DNA of 37,015 bases, from assembly GCA_945877855.1 (NCBI GenBank), contig CAMDWA010000027.1:1-37015 (forward strand), given 5' to 3'. Origin of the DNA: Thermoflexus hugenholtzii JAD2. Lineage in GTDB: Bacteria > Chloroflexota > Anaerolineae > J036 > Brachytrichaceae. The position numbers and the translations under genes are program-made. Below, piece after piece: positions 11,675 through 35,432 of this stretch; position 1 is the first letter of the stretch, and each line of letters opens with the position of its first letter. Under the pieces are notes generated by a model that had not been told where the DNA came from, made no database searches, and worked only from the letters and a program-made list of their open reading frames with translations.

Positions 11675-12223
11675 TCATGGCGACATTACATAACAGCCCG
11701 CTCGGGTTGGGTGATCTTCGACCTGTGAGCCATGACGCACTTTGCGAATGAGCCATAGCACTTGCCAATCTCCACTCGCTGCAATGGTGTGAATGATCCC
11801 AAACCAGAGCAGATTGCCATCGCCTAGTATAAGACTGAAAATGTAAGGGATGATGCCTAAAACCAGCCCGGGCATCAACCCACCCATGCGGTAAGCGCTA
11901 ATATCAACCGTCTCTTTTAAATGGGCAAAAGGGGTGAGCATTTTCCATTGAATGCCATATTCGACACTTGAAAATGGTTTTTTTGCCGCAATTGCCCATG
12001 TAAGCCCGTGAATTAACTCGTGAATAAAGATGCTGGCGATTAAAAGCAACACAAAAAGCAGAAAAGGCCAGGTGGGCGACATCGCTTCTGCGCCGTGTAT
12101 GCGATAAACCCCCCCGATTTGCAAAATGGCAATCGGCAAGGCGATGATAAATGCAATCATGTTGGCGCGTAACATCGAGATTGAAAGGTCTTCTTTGGGT
12201 TGGTTGGGCATGTTTGTTTCCAT
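11675..12223 (-). CDS. DUF3267-family membrane zincin (putative metalloprotease)
   Basis: The 182-residue protein has four hydrophobic helices. The zinc motif H-E-L-I-H-G-L-T-W lies at about residue 68, in the second helix. The family feature G-I-Q-W-K-M-L-T-P-F-A-H follows, then a second helix pair (GLMPGLVLGIIPYIFSLI). The C-terminus E-D-H-P-T-R-A-G-C-Y-V is usual for DUF3267. The zinc ligands and membrane setting suggest intramembrane proteolysis, but no substrate is known for the family. The first Met is at 12223; a second at 12211 is also possible. An open 32-codon stretch continues in frame past the TGA stop. Confidence 0.82.
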   Translation of the reverse strand: METNMPNQPKEDLSISMLRANMIAFIIALPIAILQIGGVYRIHGAEAMSPTWPFLLFVLLLIASIFIHELIHGLTWAIAAKKPFSSVEYGIQWKMLTPFAHLKETVDISAYRMGGLMPGLVLGIIPYIFSLILGDGNLLWFGIIHTIAASGDWQVLWLIRKVRHGSQVEDHPTRAGCYVMSP

Positions 12224-14708: not shown

Positions 14709-15473
14709 TTACGTTGAAATCACTTTTTTGACAAAGGTTAAAAAAGGGGTGCCATTGTCAAAATAAATGCGCAAGGTGTCGCCACTGACCTCATAGCGCA
14801 TGGCTGTTTGTAGCGATTTGAGATACCACGCCTCTTGTTGCATTGCGACAGGTTGACAAGCCATTAATGTGCTAACCAATGCGCCAAATTTTAGTTTATC
14901 GCCATCAATACGATACGTCCCACCGAGGCTATTGCAACCGCCGTCGCCATTAACACGCCCAACTGTGTCAAATGTAATGGATGAAAAAACAGCCGCAGCC
15001 ACTTTGCCATCGAGGCTGCTTTCTTGCAATTGCCAAGTGCTGCCGGCCAAACTTGAGGTTGGGGTGGTGACAATTTGTGAATTGGCGGTGCAATCATTGG
15101 CAATGATGTTGCCTTTTGTATCTTCAATTCGCGCATCATCGCCTTTGCCAAACATCAAGGTATTTTCATTGCCATATCGGATGCCACTGCCGCTGATTAA
15201 TTGGGTCAACACTTGGGTTTTGCCATTGATGGTTAAGCTGGCTTGGTTATTGCTAAAGACGATGTGAAATTTCTGACCATCAAGACAAGTGAAGTCGACA
15301 TTGTAGACCGCAGTCGGGCCTGTTGTTGGGTTAGGGCTTTGAGGCATCACGGGTGTTTTTTCGATAATGATCGTTGGCGGTGGGTTGCTCAAGGGGGTGG
15401 TCGGGGCGACACAGGCCATAAGCAATATGCACTGAAAAAATATGATGGGTAGGTGTTGATGATTGGGTTTCAA
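14709..15473 (-). CDS. MliC-META domain lipoprotein
   Basis: The 254-residue protein has a lipoprotein signal (hydrophobic stretch ending L-M-A-C, Cys about 21) and a Pro/Thr-rich linker. An MliC-like barrel follows (about 57-130: YNVDFTCLDGQKFHIVF, SGSGIRYGNENTLMFGKGDDA), then a META/HslJ domain (about 143-252: GSTWQLQES, GGCNSLGGTYRIDGDKLKF, STLMAC). MliC proteins inhibit C-type lysozyme at the cell surface; META domains occur in heat-shock HslJ and in proteins of novobiocin and stress response. The start is TTG with AAAGGA 8 bases upstream. It lies downstream of the disrupted META gene on the same strand. Confidence 0.83.
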   Translation of the reverse strand: MKPNHQHLPIIFFQCILLMACVAPTTPLSNPPPTIIIEKTPVMPQSPNPTTGPTAVYNVDFTCLDGQKFHIVFSNNQASLTINGKTQVLTQLISGSGIRYGNENTLMFGKGDDARIEDTKGNIIANDCTANSQIVTTPTSSLAGSTWQLQESSLDGKVAAAVFSSITFDTVGRVNGDGGCNSLGGTYRIDGDKLKFGALVSTLMACQPVAMQQEAWYLKSLQTAMRYEVSGDTLRIYFDNGTPFLTFVKKVIST

Positions 15474-16703
15474 GGTGTTTTCCTTTATGGTTCAGCAAAT
15501 AAATTAATGCGTGTAAGCGCCAAGCTGATGATTTTGTGCTTTCACTATTTCACTATTTCTATTAATTTGTTGTTTTGTAATTTAAAGGCGCGGGTCACAA
15601 TTGGGATTGAGGCTGTTGCAGTGGGCATATTGGGCTGATAAGGTAATATGACCGCAACAATAGTGCCAGAACGAATGGTAATCGATTGAACCAAAATATG
15701 ATCGCCCAACAAAATAGAATACATGGGGGTTGCAACCCCATTCTTGTTAATCACGCCGGTAAGATTGGTAAGCGTGTCATTGCCATCAGATGTAATCATC
15801 AACAAGACCACTGCGTCTTCGATCCCATCGCCATTGATATCGCCAAATGCTTGCTCTTTACCCAATTGGACTTTAATTTTTGCTGCCGATCCAAACGTGA
15901 CAGTGCCTTCATAGCTGCCGTCTTTTAATTGCACTATGCCGGTTTTTGTTTGTTTAATCGGATATTCAGCATTGCGCAAGGTTTCTAAAACAGAAAGGCT
16001 TGGCTGTGGGGGGCGTATGGGCAGTATCTCTGTCGCATTATCGACATGGGTCAATGACATCGCCATTGGCTGGTTAATTGCCATCCCCATACGGATAAAG
16101 GTGGCCGCGATTGCACCACTACTTGTATGCAATTCTAATTGGTCACCCTCGAGACGATAGGTCGTCGTCATTTCAAGGGCTTTGATGTAATTTGCCTCTT
16201 GTGCCATCACCCCGGCTGGCTCGGCACAGGTGCTGTGGGTCGTTGTGATGGCGCTGATGTTTATTTTTTTACCAGCCAATTCGTAATTGGCAGTATAGGT
16301 ATTGCAACCAGCCAAGCCCCCCAATTTGCCATCGTTGCTAAAGTTTATTGAGATATTTGAACCAATCAAAATACTCATGACCGCAAATTTGCTGTTGTTA
16401 TAACCAGTTGTGTGCCAAGTGATCCCATTTAGATCGCTGCTTTGCTTGATAAACGAAGCCAAGGCTTTGTCATTCTCATCAAATAAGGTTAATTGTTGAC
16501 CAACAATCTGGTAACGTGCCGTTGTTGTAATCGTCGCCAGATAGCTGTTGCCTGTTTTTTTGAGTGGGTCTGAACATGCAATCAAGGTTGAGGCGATATT
16601 CTTGCTGATGGTGAGTTTATCGCCTTTTATCATGTAGGCACTGCCATAATTGTTGCAACCATTTGTTGCATTTATATTGTTATTGGCAAAATTAAGGGTA
16701 ATT

Positions 16704-16900
16704 AAGACAGTGTTTCTTAAAACAATTTTTCGCCGAAATCACTATCTCAGCGTTGTTATGGGGCGGCAACGCCGCCCCATAACAACGCTGAGATAGTGAT
16801 TTCGGCATTCGTTTTGTCTAAATATGCTCTCTGATTTGATAAAACCACGTAATTACAGCTGACAAAAAAGTGAAATTTGATTTAAGAAACACTCTCTAAG
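16704..16900. mobile_element. 197-bp MITE-like element with TIRs and 7-bp target duplication
   Basis: The element ends match over 20 bases with 3 mismatches: TAAGACAGTGTTTCTTAAAA at the left and the reverse complement TTAGAGAGTGTTTCTTAAAT at the right. It is flanked by the direct repeat GGGTAAT at 16697-16703 and 16901-16907 (the repeat reads TAAGGGTAAT if the outer 3 bases are assigned to the target). It carries no coding sequence. Inside is a perfect 36-bp stem. It interrupts the META lipoprotein gene. The family of the source transposase is not known from this window. Confidence 0.87.
16733..16807. repeat. Perfect 36-bp-stem hairpin with GCCGAAATCACTAT tip
   Basis: Arms 16733-16768 and 16772-16807 are exact complements with a 3-base loop AAC. 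The outer 14 bases resemble the tips of the hairpins at 28232 and 32398; the inner stem is different. It forms the centre of the 197-bp element. Confidence 0.92.
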
Positions 16901-17102
16901 GGTAATGGGTGCTATCGCCGCTGATAGGCCATTGAGATACAGCAAATCCCAATGGCTGTCAATAATTTCGTTCGTGGCTGTTGTGCAGGCACCTAAGGTT
17001 GAGACGGCAAGCATAGCCAAGGCGAGGATGATTTTTGGTGTTTTCATAATTGCTTATCCTGACAATCTTCGATTGGCTATGTCTTGTCGGCAAGTTTTTA
17101 TA

Positions 17103-17360
17103 CTAACTCTTGGTGATGATGTTGTTGTTTGACAAGTCTTTCACTGCAATTGATTCTTGCTTGTTACGTTTGAAAATATATTCTTGGGCGTTATTGTCAG
17201 CTGCAATCAATTCCCAACCTTCGCTGCCTTTTTGATTGGCAAATTCTGAAATATTGGCTTTCTTTTTCCAATCATCAATTTCTTCGCCGTTAATATAACG
17301 CGGCATTGAGGCGTGTTTGCGATAGTCGCAAATCACAAATAAATATTCTAAATTTTTCAT
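17103..17360 (-). CDS. Small DUF4177-like protein
   Basis: The 85-residue soluble protein starts MKNLEYLFVICDY and contains G-S-E-G-W-E-L-I-A-A near residue 50, then Y-I-F-K-R. This strand pattern with a G-W-E-L turn occurs in DUF4177 and similar small proteins of unknown role. The ATG is preceded by AGGAG with 7-base spacing. The gene lies about 55 bp upstream of the disrupted META gene on the same strand. The family match is tentative. Confidence 0.6.
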   Translation of the reverse strand: MKNLEYLFVICDYRKHASMPRYINGEEIDDWKKKANISEFANQKGSEGWELIAADNNAQEYIFKRNKQESIAVKDLSNNNIITKS

Positions 17361-17577
17361 TTTATTCTCCTAAAGTAAATTTCAAGTTTGTATGCTGGGC
17401 GTGGTAAATCAGAGCTTGGCTAAAAGCCGTAATGAGGCATTTAATCGCCAATCGCTTGGTGATAACTTGTCACAGTTAGCAAAATGCATGTTTCATCGAC
17501 AATTGGGCGGATGCTATCAGACGCTAATGATGAGCGCTGGCATCGTCGTTTGTCACATCAAAATGAGAGGCCAATTA

Positions 17578-17754
17578 CTACACCCGCCAAAATGCTTCTA
17601 GCGTAATATCTTGGCTTTGATTATGTCCATTTAATAATGTTGTCACCATGCCCAGCACCTGAACAACATGGCGTGTATACATTGCCTCAAGTGCATTTCG
17701 GTCTCGACAAAGCAATTTTGGCAACCAAGGTGGAATCTTTGAGTAAGCTGTAAT
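17578..17754 (-). other. Open 58-codon frame, possible gene remnant
   Basis: The 405-bp gap between 17361 and 17765 has one frame that looks protein-like: S-K-I-P-P-W-L-P-K-L-L-C-R-D, then A-L-E-A-M-Y-T-R-H and a Q-D-I-T-L-E-A-F-W end. It has no ATG with a ribosome-binding site. It could be a decayed small gene or chance. I see nothing else in the gap. Confidence 0.25.
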
Positions 17755-17765
17755 TCATTTTTTGC

Positions 17766-17978
17766 TCATTTGCCAATACCTACAGGTGCGCGACAAATCT
17801 GCATGTGTAAGTCATCGCTAAACAGATTGCAACTTTGGGCGCACAGGTCTTGTTTTATCGTCTTAGCTTGATCAGGAATCAGTCTGAATAAACCTATTCG
17901 CTGTTCATTTGTGATACCATGCGCAGCAAGATTATGATGGCTTTGTTGATGATTTGTTGCCGTATTTTTAATTTTCAT
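17766..17978 (-). CDS. Small hypothetical protein
   Basis: The 70-residue product starts MKIKNTATNHQQSHHN and has a C-x3-C pair and a later Cys (LCAQSCNLF, MQICRAP). No family is recognised. The main support is a clear GGGAGAAGAAAA before the ATG. The spacing to the upstream membrane-protein gene is 168 bp. The frame stays free of long hydrophobic stretches. It could be a short Cys-containing peptide gene or a remnant. Confidence 0.45.
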   Translation of the reverse strand: MKIKNTATNHQQSHHNLAAHGITNEQRIGLFRLIPDQAKTIKQDLCAQSCNLFSDDLHMQICRAPVGIGK

Positions 17979-18146
17979 TTTTCTTCTCCCAAATTGCTCA
18001 GCCAAATAAGCCACCTAACTCGATGGTGATTTGACATTACTTTTCTGTAAAAAATACAAAATTCGCAAAAATTAAGCTGATTTAATATTTTCTTTTGCGA
18101 TTTTTGTGTTCTTTCTCGTGAATTTTTTTGATTCGTGTAAGCCCTA

Positions 18147-18404
18147 TCATTTCATTTTGCGCAAAGAGGTCAGACCGATGACAAAACCGAGGATGACAGT
18201 CAGAAAGGCTGGAATCCACATTCGACTAAAGCTGTTTAGAATGCTGTCATCAAATATGCCGATCTTGCTCACCGCGCCTTCCATCATGCCGCCTTCCATC
18301 GCAATGCGCGACATCGCCCAACTGCCAAAAAAGACAAACAGCACGGCGACAATGACAAAATCGACAATAAACATAAAGATGGGTGTTTTTTTTAATAGAT
18401 TCAT
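18147..18404 (-). CDS. Small two-helix membrane protein
   Basis: The 85-residue product (start MNLLKKTPIF) has a helix at about 8-30 (FMFIVDFVIVAVLFVFFGSW) and a second at about 62-80 (IPAFLTVILGFVIGLTSL), with a Met/Gly-rich loop between. The start is placed at 18404 because GGAG lies 9 bases upstream, rather than at a longer frame beginning 7 codons before. It belongs to the run of small envelope proteins on this strand, with YtxH 63 bp upstream. The function is unknown. Confidence 0.65.
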   Translation of the reverse strand: MNLLKKTPIFMFIVDFVIVAVLFVFFGSWAMSRIAMEGGMMEGAVSKIGIFDDSILNSFSRMWIPAFLTVILGFVIGLTSLRKMK

Positions 18405-19865: not shown

Positions 19866-20279
19866 TTATTTGCGTAATAGGGTAGATTTTGCAGCGGGGG
19901 TGTAAAAAATGATGCGAATCACTTTTTCAAACATCAAACCGAGTAAGGCATACACTAACATAGCGGCGATAGATGGGATTTCGAGCACACCTGTGCCGAT
20001 GATTGGGTTAATGCCTATATCTGCAAACAAAGCGGTAAATAGGCTGCTAACACTGTAGATGAAGTGCGTAACCACGCTAGTGGGGTCAGCGCCAATCAAT
20101 TTCAGCCCTACTCGTAATGCAATTAAGATTTCGAGCATGCCAACCATAAACCAGATGACGTAGATTTCGAGCAGGCCAAACAATGACCAGAGGGAATAGC
20201 TAGAACCCAATGTAAAAACACGTTGTTCCAGATCTAATTCTTGCGAGGGGATTGATGGTTGTGTTTTAGGTGTGGTCAT
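19866..20279 (-). CDS. YGGT-family membrane protein (paralogue 2)
   Basis: The 137-residue protein starts MTTPKTQPSIPSQELDLEQR; a GTT-AGC-ATG context also allows a start 9 bases upstream. Hydrophobic helices VIWFMVGMLEILIALRVGLKLI, THFIYSVSSLFTALF and IAAMLVYALLGLMFEKVIRII match the YGGT pattern. It aligns with paralogue 1 in the L-x-L-K-L-I-G-A-D-P/N-P core. AAGG lies 9 bases upstream of the chosen ATG. It lies between GlsB and paralogue 1 on the same strand. Confidence 0.83.
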   Translation of the reverse strand: MTTPKTQPSIPSQELDLEQRVFTLGSSYSLWSLFGLLEIYVIWFMVGMLEILIALRVGLKLIGADPTSVVTHFIYSVSSLFTALFADIGINPIIGTGVLEIPSIAAMLVYALLGLMFEKVIRIIFYTPAAKSTLLRK

Positions 20280-20386
20280 GCTAACCATCCTTATATTACC
20301 GTTTTATCAACTGTAACACGTTTGACAAAACCTCATCAGTGGCGCAGTCACTGTGTTATTGCACCACTGGGGAATGCATCAATAAC

Positions 20387-20655
20387 TTATGCCAAGCCAC
20401 GACGAAAGAATTTAATCACTGCTAATAGGATGATGGCACCTAGGAGTGATACCAGCAAGGCTGGCAAACTAAAGTTATTTTCGTTAATGGTGCTGATGCC
20501 AAAGAAGGGGGTTAACACCAAACCAGCAACAAATGCGCCCACGCACCCAACCACAATATCGATAATCGTGCTTTGGCGGCCATCTGTGCTCATAATCATA
20601 CTGGCCACCCATCCGATGATGCCGCCAACGATAATCCAAATTAAAAAGTAATCAT
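20387..20655 (-). pseudogene. GlsB/YeaQ/YmgE-family membrane protein, apparent frameshift near the start
   Basis: The body encodes IIVGGIIGWVASMIMSTDG, DIVVGCVGAFVAGLVLTPFFG and LLVSLLGAIILLAVIKFF, the three-helix transglycosylase-associated family. The ATG that has a good AAAGGAACAAA site is at 20655, but reading from it gives M-I-T-F and a stop. One more base in the run of five T (plus-strand A at 20643-20647) would give M-I-T-F-L-I-W-I-I-V-G-G-I-I-G-W, the family's usual start. So either a one-base deletion or a sequence error is present. The downstream part is intact, with an internal Met at 20608. Its neighbours CsbD and YGGT are typical partners. Confidence 0.8.
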
Positions 20656-20669
20656 TTTGTTCCTTTTAT

Positions 20670-20888
20670 TTAGTCATGCTTTAAACTGGCTTCAAATTGC
20701 GCCACACGCTTGTTAAATTCGTTTTGGGCGGCCTCACGGTTAAAGCCATATTTTTCTTGCATCACACCGGCAAATTCTTCAAATTTACCGCCGACGCGCT
20801 CAAGATCATCATTGGTGAGCAAGGCCCACCATTGGCGGGCTTGGCCGCGTACTTGCTTCCATTTGCCTTCAAATTCGTCTTTATTCAT
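20670..20888 (-). CDS. CsbD family stress protein
   Basis: The 72-residue protein is a full CsbD domain: M-N-K-D-E-F-E-G-K-W-K-Q-V-R-G-Q-A, then W-W-A-L-L-T-N-D-D-L and G-K-F-E-E-F-A-G-V-M-Q-E-K-Y-G. CsbD proteins are small helical general-stress proteins induced by salt or heat; the mechanism is unknown. The ATG has GGAGGG 8 bases upstream. The frameshifted GlsB gene begins 14 bases after the stop, so the two are co-transcribed. The first Met is well placed. Confidence 0.93.
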   Translation of the reverse strand: MNKDEFEGKWKQVRGQARQWWALLTNDDLERVGGKFEEFAGVMQEKYGFNREAAQNEFNKRVAQFEASLKHD

Positions 20889-20994
20889 ATTAATAACCCT
20901 CCCGGATTATTTTTATAAGCTACCCTTATTTTTTCACAACGGATGAGGTAGAGACAGGCGTTGTGTTCGCACCGTTTTATTAATTTGCGAATGT

Positions 20995-21363
20995 TTATTC
21001 GCGAAAGCTTTGCGCCACAGTGTGTAAGCGTTCCGCTACGCGCTCAGGTGTTTCGCCTTTGCTGATAAATACATCGGCTCCCGCCGAAAGTGCGGCCTGC
21101 TGACGTGCATCTAAATGGCTAATAAGAATGACGATGATGGCAGCGGGGCACGATGCACGCAAGGTTTCTAAGGCATTGCTTGGTTGTGTCGATAACAAAC
21201 CCCAATCGATTAATAACACGTTTAAGTGCATTTCAGGCACATCATCAATCGTGGTTTGCCAATCAGCCGCCTCGCCGATCACTTGCATATTAAGCTCTTC
21301 GAGCACCAATCGTAGCGCTGCGCGTTCTTCAGGGTTGCCATCGGCTAAGTAGATGCGAGTCAT
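20995..21363 (-). CDS. Receiver-only response regulator
   Basis: The 122-residue protein is a single receiver domain without an output domain. It has an acidic D8 in YLADGNPEE, the phosphorylated Asp at D53 in LLIDWG, Ser82 in ILISH, and Lys102 in FISKGETPERV. The usual second acidic residue is G here, so metal binding may be altered. It lies 106 bp upstream of CsbD on the same strand and 77 bp downstream of the NarL gene. It may act as a phosphate sink or interact with a partner. Confidence 0.87.
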   Translation of the reverse strand: MTRIYLADGNPEERAALRLVLEELNMQVIGEAADWQTTIDDVPEMHLNVLLIDWGLLSTQPSNALETLRASCPAAIIVILISHLDARQQAALSAGADVFISKGETPERVAERLHTVAQSFRE

Positions 21364-21419
21364 GAATTTATATTAAGGCATAACCTTAGCATCCGCATCT
21401 ATTGTTTGAGGGGGATGGC

Positions 21420-21440
21420 TCACCCCCAGTTGGGGGGGGA
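21420..21440. repeat. CACCCCCAGTTGGGG palindrome, copy 2
   Basis: TCACCCCCAGTTGGGGGGGG lies in the 77-bp gap between the NarL and receiver-only genes. It matches copy 1 at 14672 over 16 bases. It could form a terminator-like hairpin without a T run. Confidence 0.55.
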
Positions 21441-22079
21441 TTATGGGATGAGGTGCAGCCGCACAGCAAGGGCGGCGGCTTCGGTGCGGCTGGTTACGCC
21501 CAATTTGGCAAGAATATTGCTAACATGGAATTTGATGGTGGAGGTCCCGACGATTAAGCGCTCGCCGATTTGGCGGTTATTTAACCCTTCGACGATCAAG
21601 GCCAATACGGCCCACTCTTGCGTGGTGAGGTTGTGGCCTGGGGGGGGCTGGGCGATTGTGCTTTGTATTAATATGTCGGCAACATCGGGTGAGAAGGTGG
21701 CGTGCCCAAAATGGGCGGTCCGAATTGCTTGGGCAATTTCATCTGCCGACATATCTTTGAGCAAATAGCTGATGGCCCCAGCTTGCAGGGCTTTTTTTAT
21801 CAACCCTTCGTCTTTAAAGCTGGTTAAGGCAATAATTTTGATCCGAGGAAATTGTTCATGGACGGCTTGCGTAGCGGCGATGCCATCCATACCGGGCATC
21901 ACCAGATCCATTAAGATGACATCGGGCAACACTTTGGCACACAGTTCAAGCGCTGTCTCGCCGTTAATGGCCTCACCAACGAGATCAAAGTCATCAAACG
22001 CATTTAAAAAAGTGATTATCCCATGACGTACCATTGGGTGATCATCAACGATTAAAATACGGATTGGGGCATTTAACAT
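21441..22079 (-). CDS. NarL/FixJ-family response regulator
   Basis: The 212-residue protein has a receiver domain (acid pair D12-D13 in LIVDDHP, phosphorylated Asp near 58 in VILMDLVMPG, T in IALTS, K in SFKDEG). A LuxR-type helix-turn-helix follows (TTQEWAVLALIVEGLNNRQIGERL, then TIKFHVSNILAKLGVTSRTEAAALAV). It regulates transcription upon phosphorylation. The start MLNAPIRI (22079) lies inside the last codons of the kinase gene (7-base overlap) with GAGGAG upstream, so it is coupled to the kinase. A longer frame begins 12 codons upstream inside that gene. The targets are unknown. Confidence 0.93.
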   Translation of the reverse strand: MLNAPIRILIVDDHPMVRHGIITFLNAFDDFDLVGEAINGETALELCAKVLPDVILMDLVMPGMDGIAATQAVHEQFPRIKIIALTSFKDEGLIKKALQAGAISYLLKDMSADEIAQAIRTAHFGHATFSPDVADILIQSTIAQPPPGHNLTTQEWAVLALIVEGLNNRQIGERLIVGTSTIKFHVSNILAKLGVTSRTEAAALAVRLHLIP

Positions 22080-23353
22080 TTCATCTCCTCTTCTCGTGTT
22101 GTATTCGGCCAACATAAGATAATACTGCTCCCTTGCCCTGGTTGGCTGGTAATGGTTAACAACGCCTTTACTGCGGTGGCGCGTTCATACATAATGCTGA
22201 GGCCATAATGACCCGAAGGAATATGGCTGGGGTCGAACCCACGTCCATTATCGCATATATGCATTTCGACCGTTTTATTTTTTGCATCATAGCGCAGATG
22301 GATATCTACTTGGGTGGCTGCTGCATGTTTACTAATATTATTTAATGCTTCTTGGTACAAGCGGTAAAAAATAATTTTTACCTCATCGGGTAAATCAATT
22401 GGCCCATCGACCATAATATTGACAGGCACATTGTTGCGTCCGGTGAGGGCTTTGCCCAATAAATGCAAAAGTTCACTTAAATCGTTGTTGGTCAAAGCCG
22501 ATGGGCGTAACTCAACCAATAACATCCGCATTTCTGCCAAGGCCCCGCGAATTAAGCGCCGCAAATCTTCTAACGAGCGTTTGCCGCTGTTAATATCACG
22601 CTCCCATAGCCTAGGCAAAACCTCGGCAATAAGCCCAGCCGAAAAAAGCGATTGATTGACGGCATCGTGTAGCTCTTGCGCCAGCCGCTGCCGTTCATGT
22701 TGTATTGCCAGGGCTTGGGCGTTTTCATAGAGTTTTGCGTTAACCATCGTAATAGCGGCTTGGTTTGCTACGGTCAGGGCGAGGTCTGCATGATGCGCCG
22801 TAAAGTAATTAGGCAATTGATGGGCTAAGCCAATCATGCCGATGACCTGCCCTTTTACTGCAACCGGAATCCACATCCACGACTGTATCCCCTGCAAAAA
22901 TAATGTGTTGTGTTTGATGAATAAGGTATGTAAAAATTGGGCTGCGGGTGCTTTGCTGTTAATATTCGCAATACGAATAACTTTATTTTCGTTAAATAGT
23001 TTAATAATTGTGGATGGGCTATTGAGATGAATATTCGTGTAACTTGTTTGTTGTAGCCTCTTAGAACTGCGTAGTGCAAGCGGCACTAATAATGAATCAT
23101 CGAGAATAAAAAGCCCAGCTTGGTCATAATCGACAATCAGCCGTAATTGATCGAGAATAAGGCTGGGTTGAAGCTCTAAGGCCGAGGCCAACGTTTGCAA
23201 AACTTTTAATAAGATCAGTTGCTCGCGTTCTTTGGTTTTTAGTTCTTGGTAGAGTTGCCGCTCAAGCTGAGATCGATAAACATGATCATCCTGATCTGAG
23301 ATAAGGTTATCTTGATTGTCTAATGGGAGAGGTGCTGTTGGTTGCAGCGTCAT
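22073..23353 (-). CDS. GAF-domain sensor histidine kinase (HisKA_3 type)
   Basis: The 426-residue protein has an N-terminal coiled segment (EEL/QLYQELKTKEREQ), a GAF-like sensor (about 50-205: LRLIVDYDQAGLFIL, IQSWMWIPVAVKGQVIGMIGLAH), a HisKA_3 dimerisation domain with the phospho-His in RLAQELHDAVNQSLFS (about 228), and a HATPase_c domain with QEALNNISKHAAA (N box), CDNGRGFDPS (G1) and GHYGLSIMYERA. No transmembrane helix is seen, so it senses a cytosolic signal. The ligand is unknown. It overlaps its NarL partner and starts 33 bp after the upstream hypothetical gene ends. Confidence 0.93.
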   Translation of the reverse strand: MTLQPTAPLPLDNQDNLISDQDDHVYRSQLERQLYQELKTKEREQLILLKVLQTLASALELQPSLILDQLRLIVDYDQAGLFILDDSLLVPLALRSSKRLQQTSYTNIHLNSPSTIIKLFNENKVIRIANINSKAPAAQFLHTLFIKHNTLFLQGIQSWMWIPVAVKGQVIGMIGLAHQLPNYFTAHHADLALTVANQAAITMVNAKLYENAQALAIQHERQRLAQELHDAVNQSLFSAGLIAEVLPRLWERDINSGKRSLEDLRRLIRGALAEMRMLLVELRPSALTNNDLSELLHLLGKALTGRNNVPVNIMVDGPIDLPDEVKIIFYRLYQEALNNISKHAAATQVDIHLRYDAKNKTVEMHICDNGRGFDPSHIPSGHYGLSIMYERATAVKALLTITSQPGQGSSIILCWPNTTREEEMKC

Positions 23354-23703: not shown

Positions 23704-24840
23704 CTATACTTTAAGCGATGGGGGTGATAGTGGTATGAGTTCTGAGTTAGGAAGGTGCATACGGGCGGCCCCAATACACGTATCGGCCATGCCATAATAC
23801 ACATCTAGGTCAAAGCTGCCATCGGCCTGCTTCCTTAAATCCACCCCAGTCGGGAAAACAACATTAGGAACCAAGCCTTCGCGTTCTTCTTTTACCGTTG
23901 CCGATAAAATTGGGTTAACCGAGCGGTAGCAGATTTTTCTAGGGTCATTTACATCTAAAATCATTAACCCAGCGGCATAATGCACTTGTGATTGGTGAAG
24001 CTCGTTGTGTTGCATATGCCCAGATACGCCATGATAGAGCGTCAGCCAGCCATAGGGCGTTAAGATGGGCGGTGCGCCGCCCCCAATTTTGAGATGTTCC
24101 CACGCTTCACAAGGTGACGCTAAGATACAGTGGTCACGCCACACTAACAAGGCACTTGGGTTGTGTTGGGCTGGCTCAATTGAACAATATGAGATCCACA
24201 TACTGGCGCGGGTCTCTGTAATGCCATGCGGCAAAATTTGCATCTGATGCCCACGCCCCTGCATATTGGATGGGCGGTGAATCATTGCCAAAGCTGGCTT
24301 GCCGTGCGGGTCTAAGACTGGTTTCGGAAAGAGATACGCATCTTTATTGTCATATAAATCAAAATCGACCCGATATTTTGGCATAAAACTAAACTTAACA
24401 GGGCCAACCCGTTGCCATGTGAATAGGTCTTTTGAGATCGCCAAGGCCACACGCGGGCCAACTGGCCCATAGGCGGTATAAGTCATCACATAGCAGCCTA
24501 ATGGCTCGACAAAGGTTATACGTGGGTCTTCACATCCGGCGGTATGTTCATTTTGCTCATAAGGTTCGGTTGGCTCAAGCGCATAGCCCATGCGTTGTAC
24601 CGCAATCGGGTCGCCATCTGAATCAAATATCACTTCACCAATGCCAATGCGTGAATAATTACCTTTTGCGACAATTCTGGCAAATAAATAGAGCTTGCCA
24701 TCGGGGCCACGCGCCGTGGCTGGGTTAAGCACCCCCATCGCTTCGTCGGGGTTTTTATCATCGCTGCACATCACCACCCCCATTCGCTTAAGTTCAAAAA
24801 GGGGCGTTGTTGGCGGCGCTTCGGTCTGAAATATATTCAT
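23704..24840 (-). CDS. GH130-family glycoside phosphorylase/hydrolase-like protein
   Basis: The 378-residue protein looks like a five-bladed propeller. It has N-P-A-T-A-R-G-P-D-G-K-L-Y-L-F-A-R near residue 40, NEHTAGCEDPRITFVEPLG (the E-D-P-R motif with the general-acid region) near 100, TYTAYGPVGPRVALAIS, and YHGVSGHM later. GH130 enzymes phosphorolyse beta-mannosides such as Man-GlcNAc or mannobiose; the specific substrate is not readable. The ATG has no strong ribosome-binding site. It heads the run leading to the kinase. GT4 and the glycosidase-like gene lie 9 kb downstream on the same strand. Confidence 0.88.
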   Translation of the reverse strand: MNIFQTEAPPTTPLFELKRMGVVMCSDDKNPDEAMGVLNPATARGPDGKLYLFARIVAKGNYSRIGIGEVIFDSDGDPIAVQRMGYALEPTEPYEQNEHTAGCEDPRITFVEPLGCYVMTYTAYGPVGPRVALAISKDLFTWQRVGPVKFSFMPKYRVDFDLYDNKDAYLFPKPVLDPHGKPALAMIHRPSNMQGRGHQMQILPHGITETRASMWISYCSIEPAQHNPSALLVWRDHCILASPCEAWEHLKIGGGAPPILTPYGWLTLYHGVSGHMQHNELHQSQVHYAAGLMILDVNDPRKICYRSVNPILSATVKEEREGLVPNVVFPTGVDLRKQADGSFDLDVYYGMADTCIGAARMHLPNSELIPLSPPSLKV

Positions 24841-24950
24841 AATCGTTGCATAATAGTGTGTGTTGCTGAGTAAGTGTTTTTATCTGGGGGTGGGTAGCGA
24901 TGCTATAAACAAATTTGCGCTATTGTGAAATCGGCATTTCATCACTTTAG

Positions 24951-24987
24951 GTGATCATATATCAATCTATAATTGATATATGATCAC
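24951..24987 (+). promoter_or_regulatory. Inverted repeat overlapping the M24 peptidase start codon
   Basis: GTGATCATATATCAAT (24951-24966) and its exact complement (24972-24987) enclose the loop CTATA. The ATG at 24980 is inside the right arm. In RNA the stem would hide the start codon; in DNA it could be a dimeric repressor site. There is no separate Shine-Dalgarno sequence, and the transcript may begin inside the repeat. Confidence 0.7.
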
Positions 24988-26101
24988 ACGTGAAATCGCC
25001 CTTGCACGGGCGCAACAGATTATCGCCAGCCAAAAACTTGATGCGTTGGTCGTGGCTTCGCCTTGGAATGTGCGTTATTTGGCAGGCACTTACTTCCTCA
25101 CCCAAAAAGTCATTCCAGACCGATTAGCACTGGTGGTGGTAACGCCCAATGCCGAGCCGAGCTTCATTTATTGCAGCATCGAAGATGCCAGCGCCCAAGA
25201 TGAAAGCTGGCTTGATGATTTGCGCGGGTATACCGAATTTGTCGATCGCCCGATGCATGTATTGGCCGATCAGTTACGCGTACGTGGCATCGCTACTGGG
25301 CGCATTGGTATCGAAACCGATTATTTGGTCAGCACCCATTCGGCAGAATTGCGGGCCGAATTGCCGCAGGCCGATTTTGTGGCAGCCCAAGGCTGGGTCG
25401 ATAAGGCCCGTATGATCAAAACCCCCGAAGAAATTGCATGGCTGGGCAAAACCACCTTGGCGACCGATGCTGCCATTCGCGCCGCCTTTGCCGCCACCCA
25501 AATTGGCGAGCCGCAATTTAATGTGGGTGATCGCATGGTGGCCCATGCCCGGCGCAGTGGGGCCGATGGCTTGCAGCATTTGGTTTTGGCAACCGGCGAT
25601 ACCGCTTTTAAAGTTCATGCTGTGCCCGACATCACCCCATTAAAAGCCGGTGTGCCGCTGCGGGTTGATTTTGGTATGACTTGGCACGGCTATCTGAGTG
25701 ACATCGCCCGCACTGCATTTTTAGCCCCCCTGCAACCACGTCAAGCTGATACGTATCGGCGGTTAGAGGCGGTGCAACAAACTGTGATTGCATCACTGCG
25801 GGCTGGTACCCGGGCGTGTGATGCCTATGCTTTGTGTGCCAAAGCCTACGCCCGCCAAGGTTTGCCCTTCGGTATGCCCCATATTGGGCATAGCATCGGT
25901 TTGGTGTTGCACGAAAAACCCATGTTGCACCCGCGTGATGAGACTGTGTTGATGCCGGGCATGGTATTTATGGTCGAACCGGCGGTGGTGGCGCATGATG
26001 GCGTGTATCACACCGAAGATATGGTCGAGATCACGGAGGGTGATCCACGTGTATTGTCACGCTCGGCAGATTGGGCCGAACCGATGGAGATTGGCGGCTA
26101 A
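24980..26101 (+). CDS. M24-family Xaa-Pro peptidase
   Basis: The 373-residue protein has an N-terminal creatinase-like domain (about 1-130: ALVVASPWNVRYLAGTYF) and a pita-bread catalytic domain. Metal-ligand positions are visible: VDFGMTWHGYLSDIART (two Asp, about 229 and 240), HIGHSIGLVLHEKP (His about 304), GMVFMVEPAVV (Glu about 336) and TEDMVEIT (Glu about 352). It removes N-terminal residues before proline or hydrolyses X-Pro dipeptides in the cytosol. Length and order match prolidases. An inverted repeat overlaps the start. The pentapeptide-repeat gene begins 8 bp downstream. Confidence 0.93.
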   Translation: MITREIALARAQQIIASQKLDALVVASPWNVRYLAGTYFLTQKVIPDRLALVVVTPNAEPSFIYCSIEDASAQDESWLDDLRGYTEFVDRPMHVLADQLRVRGIATGRIGIETDYLVSTHSAELRAELPQADFVAAQGWVDKARMIKTPEEIAWLGKTTLATDAAIRAAFAATQIGEPQFNVGDRMVAHARRSGADGLQHLVLATGDTAFKVHAVPDITPLKAGVPLRVDFGMTWHGYLSDIARTAFLAPLQPRQADTYRRLEAVQQTVIASLRAGTRACDAYALCAKAYARQGLPFGMPHIGHSIGLVLHEKPMLHPRDETVLMPGMVFMVEPAVVAHDGVYHTEDMVEITEGDPRVLSRSADWAEPMEIGG

Positions 26102-26108
26102 GGCATGT

Positions 26109-26402
26109 ATGTCAAATAAATATCCCAAAAAAATATCAATGAGCGGTTTGGCTGTGGGGGGCGAGGCGATTGGCGCACAAGCCACTGGCACCCAAGCCAT
26201 CGGTTTGCATGTTATTGTGGGGCAAGCGCTTGGCGCACTTGCAGTTGGGGCGCTGGCGTTTGGCGCATTGGCGATCGGGGCGCTGGCAATTGGGCGTTTA
26301 TCGGTGCGGCGAATGCGGGTCGATAAATTGTCAATCGGCGAGCTTGAAGTTGATGTGTTGCGTGTGCGCAAGTTGGACGTGCTGCAAAAAGCTGAATTGT
26401 AG
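26109..26402 (+). CDS. Pentapeptide-repeat protein of the A-x-G-A-L type
   Basis: The 97-residue protein begins MSNKYPKKISMSGL and then has about 15 consecutive units of five residues, starting AVGGE, AIGAQ, ATGTQ and AIGLH. The core is ALGAL, AVGAL, AFGAL, AIGAL, AIGRL. Later units become charged: SVRRM, RVDKL, SIGEL, EVDVL, RVRKL, DVLQK. The period is exact. It implies a right-handed beta-helix; the hydrophobic first half may insert in a membrane. It differs from the common A-D/N-L-x-x type. It is likely co-transcribed with the M24 gene. The function is unknown. Confidence 0.7.
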   Translation: MSNKYPKKISMSGLAVGGEAIGAQATGTQAIGLHVIVGQALGALAVGALAFGALAIGALAIGRLSVRRMRVDKLSIGELEVDVLRVRKLDVLQKAEL

Positions 26403-26428
26403 GGGCGGGTCACAGATCCACACTTGCC
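26402..26428. repeat. GGGCGGGTCACAGATCC repeat, copy 2
   Basis: It shares GGGCGGGTC and GATCC with the hairpin at 19652; the right arm has changed to CACACTTGCCC. It follows the stop of the pentapeptide-repeat gene. Confidence 0.5.
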
Positions 26429-26432
26429 CTAT

Positions 26433-26800
26433 TTAAGGCTTGTTTGATCCACATTCGTGCAAGGCGTGTTGTGATTGATAAGCCCGCCACACGTCACTGA
26501 TCCAATTCTGCACAGTGTCGGCTTTATGCTCAGGTGGCGCATCACGCACATTGGCTATCGTTAATTTGCCTAAAAAAGCGAGTGGGGTGGGCTTAACAAT
26601 GTCAACTTTGCCATTTAACCAAGTTTGAATGGCTTTGTATACTTTTTCGTCGCCGTTGTATTCGATACCACAACACAAACGTGTTAAATGCGCCGCATAT
26701 GATTTGGCCGATTTGCAATAAACCAGCCTTCGCGCCCTGCGATGTCGTTTGCGCCACAATCTGGGCAGTGGGGCAGAATAGATATGGTATTTGTTTGCAT
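26433..26800 (-). pseudogene. DUF5946-like protein, apparent frameshift
   Basis: The 5' frame (26800 to 26684) gives MQTNTISILPHCPDCGAND and then loses sense. The 3' frame (to 26433) gives S-Y-A-A-H-L-T-R-L-C-C-G, LGKLTIANVRDAPPEHKADTVQNWISDVWRAY and an H-A-L-H-E-C tail, a pattern like DUF5946 (zinc C-P-x-C-G, then H-L-x-V-x-C, then L-T-I-A-D-V...W-A). The two parts are in different frames, with the shift in the GC-rich stretch at about 26700-26760. Sequencing error or decay cannot be separated here. The family assignment is tentative. Confidence 0.5.
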
Positions 26801-26968
26801 GATTGCATTACCAATTTTATTTTTTAAACTGACCACTTAGCGGTTGATTTTAGACCGTATCCCAATTAATATAACTCTAGTGAATGTGTAAATGTGTAAT
26901 CGGTGCAGTGGTTTTGCAAAATTGCCGCACTATGTTTGGTGTGAACCTAAAACACCAAGGAGTATGCC

Positions 26969-28231: not shown

Positions 28232-28289
28232 GCCGATTTTACGATCTATCCCCCAAAGTGTTGCTTTGGGGATAGATCATAAAATCGGC
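28232..28289. repeat. Hairpin with GCCGATTTTACGAT tip
   Basis: Arms 28232-28258 and 28264-28289 pair over 26 positions with one mismatch and one bulged C, around a 5-base loop. The outer part GCCGATTT matches the hairpins at 32398 and 16733; the inner stem (CTATCCCC-AAAG) is private. It follows the PD40 gene. Confidence 0.88.
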
Positions 28290-32349: not shown

Positions 32350-32397
32350 CGTCGATTTAGCTTGACAATGTCACATTAGCCAATGTGAACAGGTTTT

Positions 32398-32454
32398 GCC
32401 GATTTCACTATATCCTCATCTGCCGTAGATAGATGAGGATATAGTGAAATCGGC
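32398..32454. repeat. Perfect 24-bp-stem hairpin with GCCGATTTCACTAT tip
   Basis: Arms 32398-32421 and 32431-32454 are exact complements with a 9-base loop. The outer 14 bases are shared with the 28232 and 16733 hairpins; the inner ATCCTCATCT is private. It lies between the cytochrome c gene and glcD. Confidence 0.92.
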
Positions 32455-32498
32455 ATTACGTTTTTAAAAAGCTAAAAAATACGATAAACTTATAACTA

Positions 32499-35283: not shown

Positions 35284-35432
35284 GAGCCGTGAGCCATGAG
35301 TCGTGAGCCATGAGTCGTGAGCCATGAGTCGTGAGCCATGAGCCATGAGTCGTGAGCCATGAGCCATGAGCCGTGAGCCATGAGCCTTAGTCAAAGCTCA
35401 CGGCTCACGGCTTATGGCTCAAAGCTCATGGC
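35284..35432. repeat. Heptamer-word hairpin (GAGCCAT/GAGTCGT)n
   Basis: Fifteen consecutive heptamers (35284-35388), all variants of GAGCCAT, GAGTCGT or GAGCCGT, are followed after 4 bases by five complementary heptamers (35393-35432). The units alternate in places to a period of 14. It lies between convergent glcE and the P450 gene. Confidence 0.88.

Follow-up and report, generated by a model that had tools for sequence, protein, structure and literature searches.

Within the IS5 family of insertion sequences, the IS1031 and ISL2 groups follow TNA/ANT group rules. Tourist-like MITEs of PIF/Harbinger elements carry a 5'-TWA-3' duplication (PMC4482050) and are moved in trans (PMC2836001), and 7-9 bp direct repeats are described for QMITE2 of Coxiella (reviewed in PMC10969869). 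The known hallmark that template switching leaves at inverted repeats is homogenisation of the arms together with inversion of the spacer (PMC8604942).

The element described here is located in the window, i.e., the whole stretch of 37,015 nucleotides analysed, which is the whole of contig C27 in the draft genome G000 (4.43 Mb in 246 contigs, completeness 78.7%). Comparison was mainly with the draft genome of a sister species of the same genus (G003; MAG Chloroflexi bacterium isolate REEB501). With a probability of roughly 85%, the locus reflects a MITE that was mobilised in trans and inserted at a TAA next to a likely older repeat, the disrupted allele being passed between species by recombination. 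Coordinates are compiled in Table 1.

Table 1 Features of the insertion site and related elements (positions refer to the window unless a genome and contig are given)
Feature	Position	Strand	Basis
Tract with 2 differences from G003, enclosing the insertion	16449-18171	.	window alignment
Lipoprotein gene, 5' part: signal peptide (LGAC lipobox) and beginning of META domain 1	16907-17047	-	translation
Downstream ORF after the split, 362 aa: remainder of META 1, META 2, C-terminal part	15545-16633	-	ORF and Pfam
MITE proper, 191 bp, GACAGTGTTTCTTAA...TTAAGAAACACTCTC	16706-16896	.	borders from 27 complete copies including the 854-bp IS
Left terminal inverted repeat	16706-16729	.	repeat search
Right terminal inverted repeat	16873-16896	.	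repeat search
TAA, left copy of the target duplication, 3 bp	16703-16705	.	TWA rule: 27 copies and 2 empty sites
TAA, right copy of the target duplication, 3 bp	16897-16899	.	TWA rule: 27 copies and 2 empty sites
GGGTAAT, left copy, within TAAGGGTAAT (16693-16702)	16696-16702	.	repeat search
GGGTAAT, right copy, within TAAGGGTAAT (16897-16906)	16900-16906	.	repeat search
75-bp hairpin, 36-bp perfect arms, loop AAC (16768-16770)	16732-16806	.	repeat search, fold; absent from the original prediction
Elements of about 222 bp	G000:C100:3585-3806, C45:17498-17720, C196:889-1110, C233:177-398; G003:C278 (L193:610-831)

The inverted ends of the MITE (16705-16729/16873-16897) extend over 25 nt with 88% complementarity, as determined by repeat search and direct reading, and comparison of complete copies places the element borders at GAC/GAG...CTC/GTC. 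With 191 bp, in-frame stop codons and no transposase ORF, the element has the size (< ~500 bp) and the non-coding nature of MITEs. The original prediction of a non-autonomous, IS-derived element with imperfect terminal inverted repeats is borne out by these ends, by further copies and by an IS with the same ends (see below). The strand folds with -100.5 kcal/mol (z -14.8), which is far beyond chance. An Rfam search of the window yielded no match, and no outward promoter was found in the 191-bp element.

The other copies that the original prediction proposed to search for in the genome were retrieved: a sequence search of G000 detected 65 matching pieces, many of them at contig ends, where a repeat on which assemblies break would be expected to lie. 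In G003, a scan with the end pattern gave 146 matches, compared to 2 with the reversed control pattern. Shorter copies of the MITE measure 119-171 bp. A second non-coding set (about 222 bp) combines the same IS5-type ends with a different interior; its copy on contig C233 of G000 abuts a degraded fragment of a related transposase. The MITE represents a new IS5-type family of well-supported anatomy, which is ordinary in kind.

An 854-bp IS in G003 (G003:C88:7745-8598) has the same 15-bp ends as the MITE, with GASRGTGTTTCTTAA present at both ends of either element, is flanked by TTA/TTA and contains an intact ORF of 266 aa. The encoded transposase scores 194 bits against NCBIfam NF033580 (IS5; cut-off 110) and lies above the cut-offs for Pfam PF13340 (DUF4096) and PF01609 (DDE_Tnp_1); additional fragments of the transposase end of this IS occur at contig ends of G003. 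Since the IS and the MITE have just their ends in common, its role as the likely helper is deduced from these. The IS5-family transposase would mobilise the MITE in trans, with insertion at the TAA of the lipoprotein gene and duplication of this triplet. A full-length transposase of this type was not found in G000, which harbours just a 58%-identical degraded fragment with a stop codon, and the four DDE_Tnp_1 transposases of G000 checked for matching ends provided no convincing pair. As this genome is 78.7% complete, the missing intact source is weak evidence. The predicted source transposase has a counterpart in the IS of the sister species, whereas no intact one was found in the assembly of the window's own genome.

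The lipoprotein gene runs on the minus strand from position 17047, and its META domain is cut by the element. Against Pfam META (PF03724), the downstream ORF shows two matching stretches (E 5e-28), META 1 being divided such that the predicted domain halves indeed lie on both sides. Joining the flanks without 16696-16899 (204 bp) produces a single 432-aa frame (...AIAPITLNFANNNINATNGCNNYG...), confirming the proposed split of one gene and its restoration upon excision. The insertion contributes in-frame stop codons and a hairpin of -100 kcal/mol to the gene, which on this account now yields no more than a 64-residue truncated lipoprotein and an orphan downstream ORF; the function of the gene is presumably lost. 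Retained function of the downstream ORF after insertion, as might be read from a dN/dS of 0.28, was rejected, since the substitutions behind this value do not fall within the recombined tract and were probably in place before one lineage acquired the disrupted allele. The neighbouring gene (14709-15473, minus strand) is also lipoprotein-like and encodes MliC and META domains.

The original prediction regarded GGGTAAT as a 7-bp target duplication, which is not supported by the family. The site in the window reads TAAGGGTAAT-TAA-element-TAA-GGGTAAT, so that the 7-bp repeat is located outside the duplication typical of the MITE family. Among 27 complete copies (the MITEs of G000 and G003 plus one IS), the flanking triplets are TAA or TTA in 50 of 54 cases and are identical on both sides in 19 copies (permutation p 0.0018), the remaining 8 lacking an identical flanking triplet. 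Two insertions of G003 could be traced to empty orthologous sites in G000, one of which (L140/L221) contains exactly one TAA, while the other (L138/L219) fits a single TAA in length with one substitution. Together, empty sites and triplet counts define the target duplication of the family as 3 bp (TAA/TTA).

TAAGGGTAAT forms an exact 10-bp direct repeat; when the element and one TAA are excised, two of its units stand in tandem and a stop codon remains. More probably than not, the repeat arose by tandem duplication at the target before insertion. Given such a target, the gene would already have been frameshifted when the element landed; the tandem duplication would accordingly be the first and the insertion the second of two mutations. 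At the copy on contig C177 of G003, the flanking match is smaller and the left flank contains a further unit of a local repeat (TTAGGGC), favouring pre-existing repeats; a search of G000 for the empty site of this copy gave no match, and no empty allele of the lipoprotein site in the window was found. Alternatively, the insertion itself may have produced a duplication of 7 bp (GGGTAAT) or 10 bp (TAAGGGTAAT), with the old TAA flank or flanks carried along. One event would then cover both gene break and repeat, removal of 204 bp restores the exact frame, and a 7-bp match beside TAA is improbable by chance (about 6e-5). However, every other complete copy tested lacks a repeat of at least 5 bp beyond the triplet, cleavage would be required outside the IS5-type ends, and both empty sites of the family obey the 3-bp rule. 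An atypical duplication is a serious possibility to which we assign less than even odds, and a tandem duplication preceding a regular 3-bp insertion is preferred.

The insertion is shared with the sister species. Two contigs of G003 match the left (C403) and right flank (C461), respectively; both end inside the element, from opposite sides, so that the G003 assembly is broken at it. The 7-bp repeat is present there as well, and the insertion is at the same base as in the window. Divergence between the two genomes amounts to 3-4% around the locus and to 0.1% in a tract of about 1.7 kb. For a near-identical tract in a background of this divergence, homologous recombination of the disrupted allele between species is the simplest reading, and this allele was probably passed between the two Chloroflexota species in this manner. 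The insertion was originally considered recent, which is plausible; however, it is not private to G000, being common to G003 base for base within the near-identical tract. The closest full-length MITE copy found is at another site in G003 (contig C38; 99.5% identity) and has the same rare AAC loop, which suggests an origin in the G003 lineage, if only tentatively given that G000 is a draft. The small copy tree includes some copies on differing strands and was used just for the placement of the window copy beside that on C38. Two further segments of the window (20000-22750 and 24000-26900) are near-identical to G003 in a background of 3-4% divergence, suggesting a recombination mosaic.

An old insertion that both species received by vertical descent from a shared ancestor would likewise explain the identical site, repeat and element, and some other copies are apparently common at orthologous sites. 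It is nevertheless improbable in view of the local drop in divergence (0.1% at the insertion, 3-4% in the surroundings) and of the purifying selection (dN/dS 0.28) on the gene outside the tract, which would be expected of a gene that stayed intact during most of the time since the species diverged. That the shared insertion is a binning artefact, with the window contig derived from the sister population, would agree with the high identity of parts of the window to G003 but is highly unlikely, since identity of the window to G003 is about 94-98%, some segments diverging by up to 7%, and aligned orthologous stretches of other contigs are similar (mostly 93-97% identity, a divergence of roughly 3-7%).

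The least explained part of the case is the set of hairpins to which the inner palindrome of the MITE belongs. In the MITE hairpin, 985 of the 1008 pair cells compared over 28 copies are Watson-Crick and several positions are changed on both sides, e.g., pair 20 with C-G (14), G-C (13) and T-A (1); the loop is AAA in 14, TTT in 13 and AAC in one copy. Since this matches the signature described for inverted repeats (PMC8604942), template switching is preferred over selection at the RNA level. A pattern with the outer 14 bp fixed and 20-50 bases free was found at 19 places in G000, 25 in G003 and one in G001, and searches of the remaining 146 genomes gave no match; exact-pattern hits are thus limited to three genomes, all from a genus represented here by four. 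Inner stems differ among many of these places. Among the places listed, which were the first of each genome, the middle is paired, sometimes imperfectly (one or two mismatches at G003:C168:15007, G000:C19:38574 and G000:C65:11620), and at G000:C36:12849 the free middle pairs poorly.

A looser motif detected 59 hairpins in about 800 kb sampled. The non-MITE hairpins (n=46) are mainly located between ORFs (39); 2 fall within an ORF and 5 close to the edge of the examined stretch. Some hairpins form part of another repeat, whose ends resemble GTATCTTCTCAATAATT. Long hairpins at three positions of the window (16732-16806, 28232-28289, 32397-32455) and at many other loci have outer arms GCCGAAATCACTAT or GCCGATTTCACTAT in common, differ in their inner stems and are mostly intergenic. 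A role as dedicated terminators would fit the intergenic location, yet was rejected as no orientation is preferred (11 convergent, 20 tandem, 8 divergent). Integron-like cassette arrays were discarded as well, the hairpins on contig C36 of G000 being located between ordinary genes such as those for malate dehydrogenase and seryl-tRNA synthetase (names by inspection). One may speculate that the hairpin is an exchangeable module of several unrelated short repeats of the genus, with 14 fixed outer bp and an inner stem repeatedly rewritten by template switching and kept nearly perfectly paired, and that it is maybe mobile or regulatory itself, although we consider this doubtful.

A hairpin repeat at G003:C301:10500-10760 replaces about 2 kb of G000:C4:18660-20730 (ATPase-like and HNH-like frames, by inspection), and similar replacements were observed at G003:C301:15280-15470 and in G003:C403 versus positions 11917-12109 of the window. 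Tandem short units (GGATGAA, GAGCCAT and similar) occur as inverted intergenic pairs at 1539-1603 and 35360-35421 of the window and at many other loci.

While the insertion event itself is ordinary, family data corrected a target-duplication rule guessed from one copy, and a disrupted allele apparently moves between species by recombination. The hairpin set, with its two-sided stem changes and an AAA:TTT loop ratio of 14:13, provides natural data for measuring the maintenance of palindromes by template switching and is the part worth following.

Among known systems, the putative helper resembles the 3-bp-duplication groups of the IS5 family (NF033580; DUF4096 and DDE_Tnp_1) in transposase family, length (about 850 bp), single ORF and an AT-rich 3-bp duplication; the MITE differs by having no ORF, and the helper transposase is <46% identical to its best plasmid-borne relatives. 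Tourist-like MITEs of PIF/Harbinger, the eukaryotic relatives of IS5, are also short and non-coding with a TWA duplication, but the present host is bacterial and the putative helper is an IS5 element, so that the likeness is one of mechanism only. QMITE2 of Coxiella likewise has AT-rich ends, a strong foldback, high copy number and no coding capacity, whereas the present MITE has a 3-bp duplication and, in addition, an inner hairpin common to other repeats. REP/REPIN-type palindromes (PMC3116915, PMC3733652) are dispersed and intergenic like the hairpins of the present genus; the latter are set apart by the form of their stems, which are near-perfect over roughly 20-38 bp, constant at the outer ends and variable further in.
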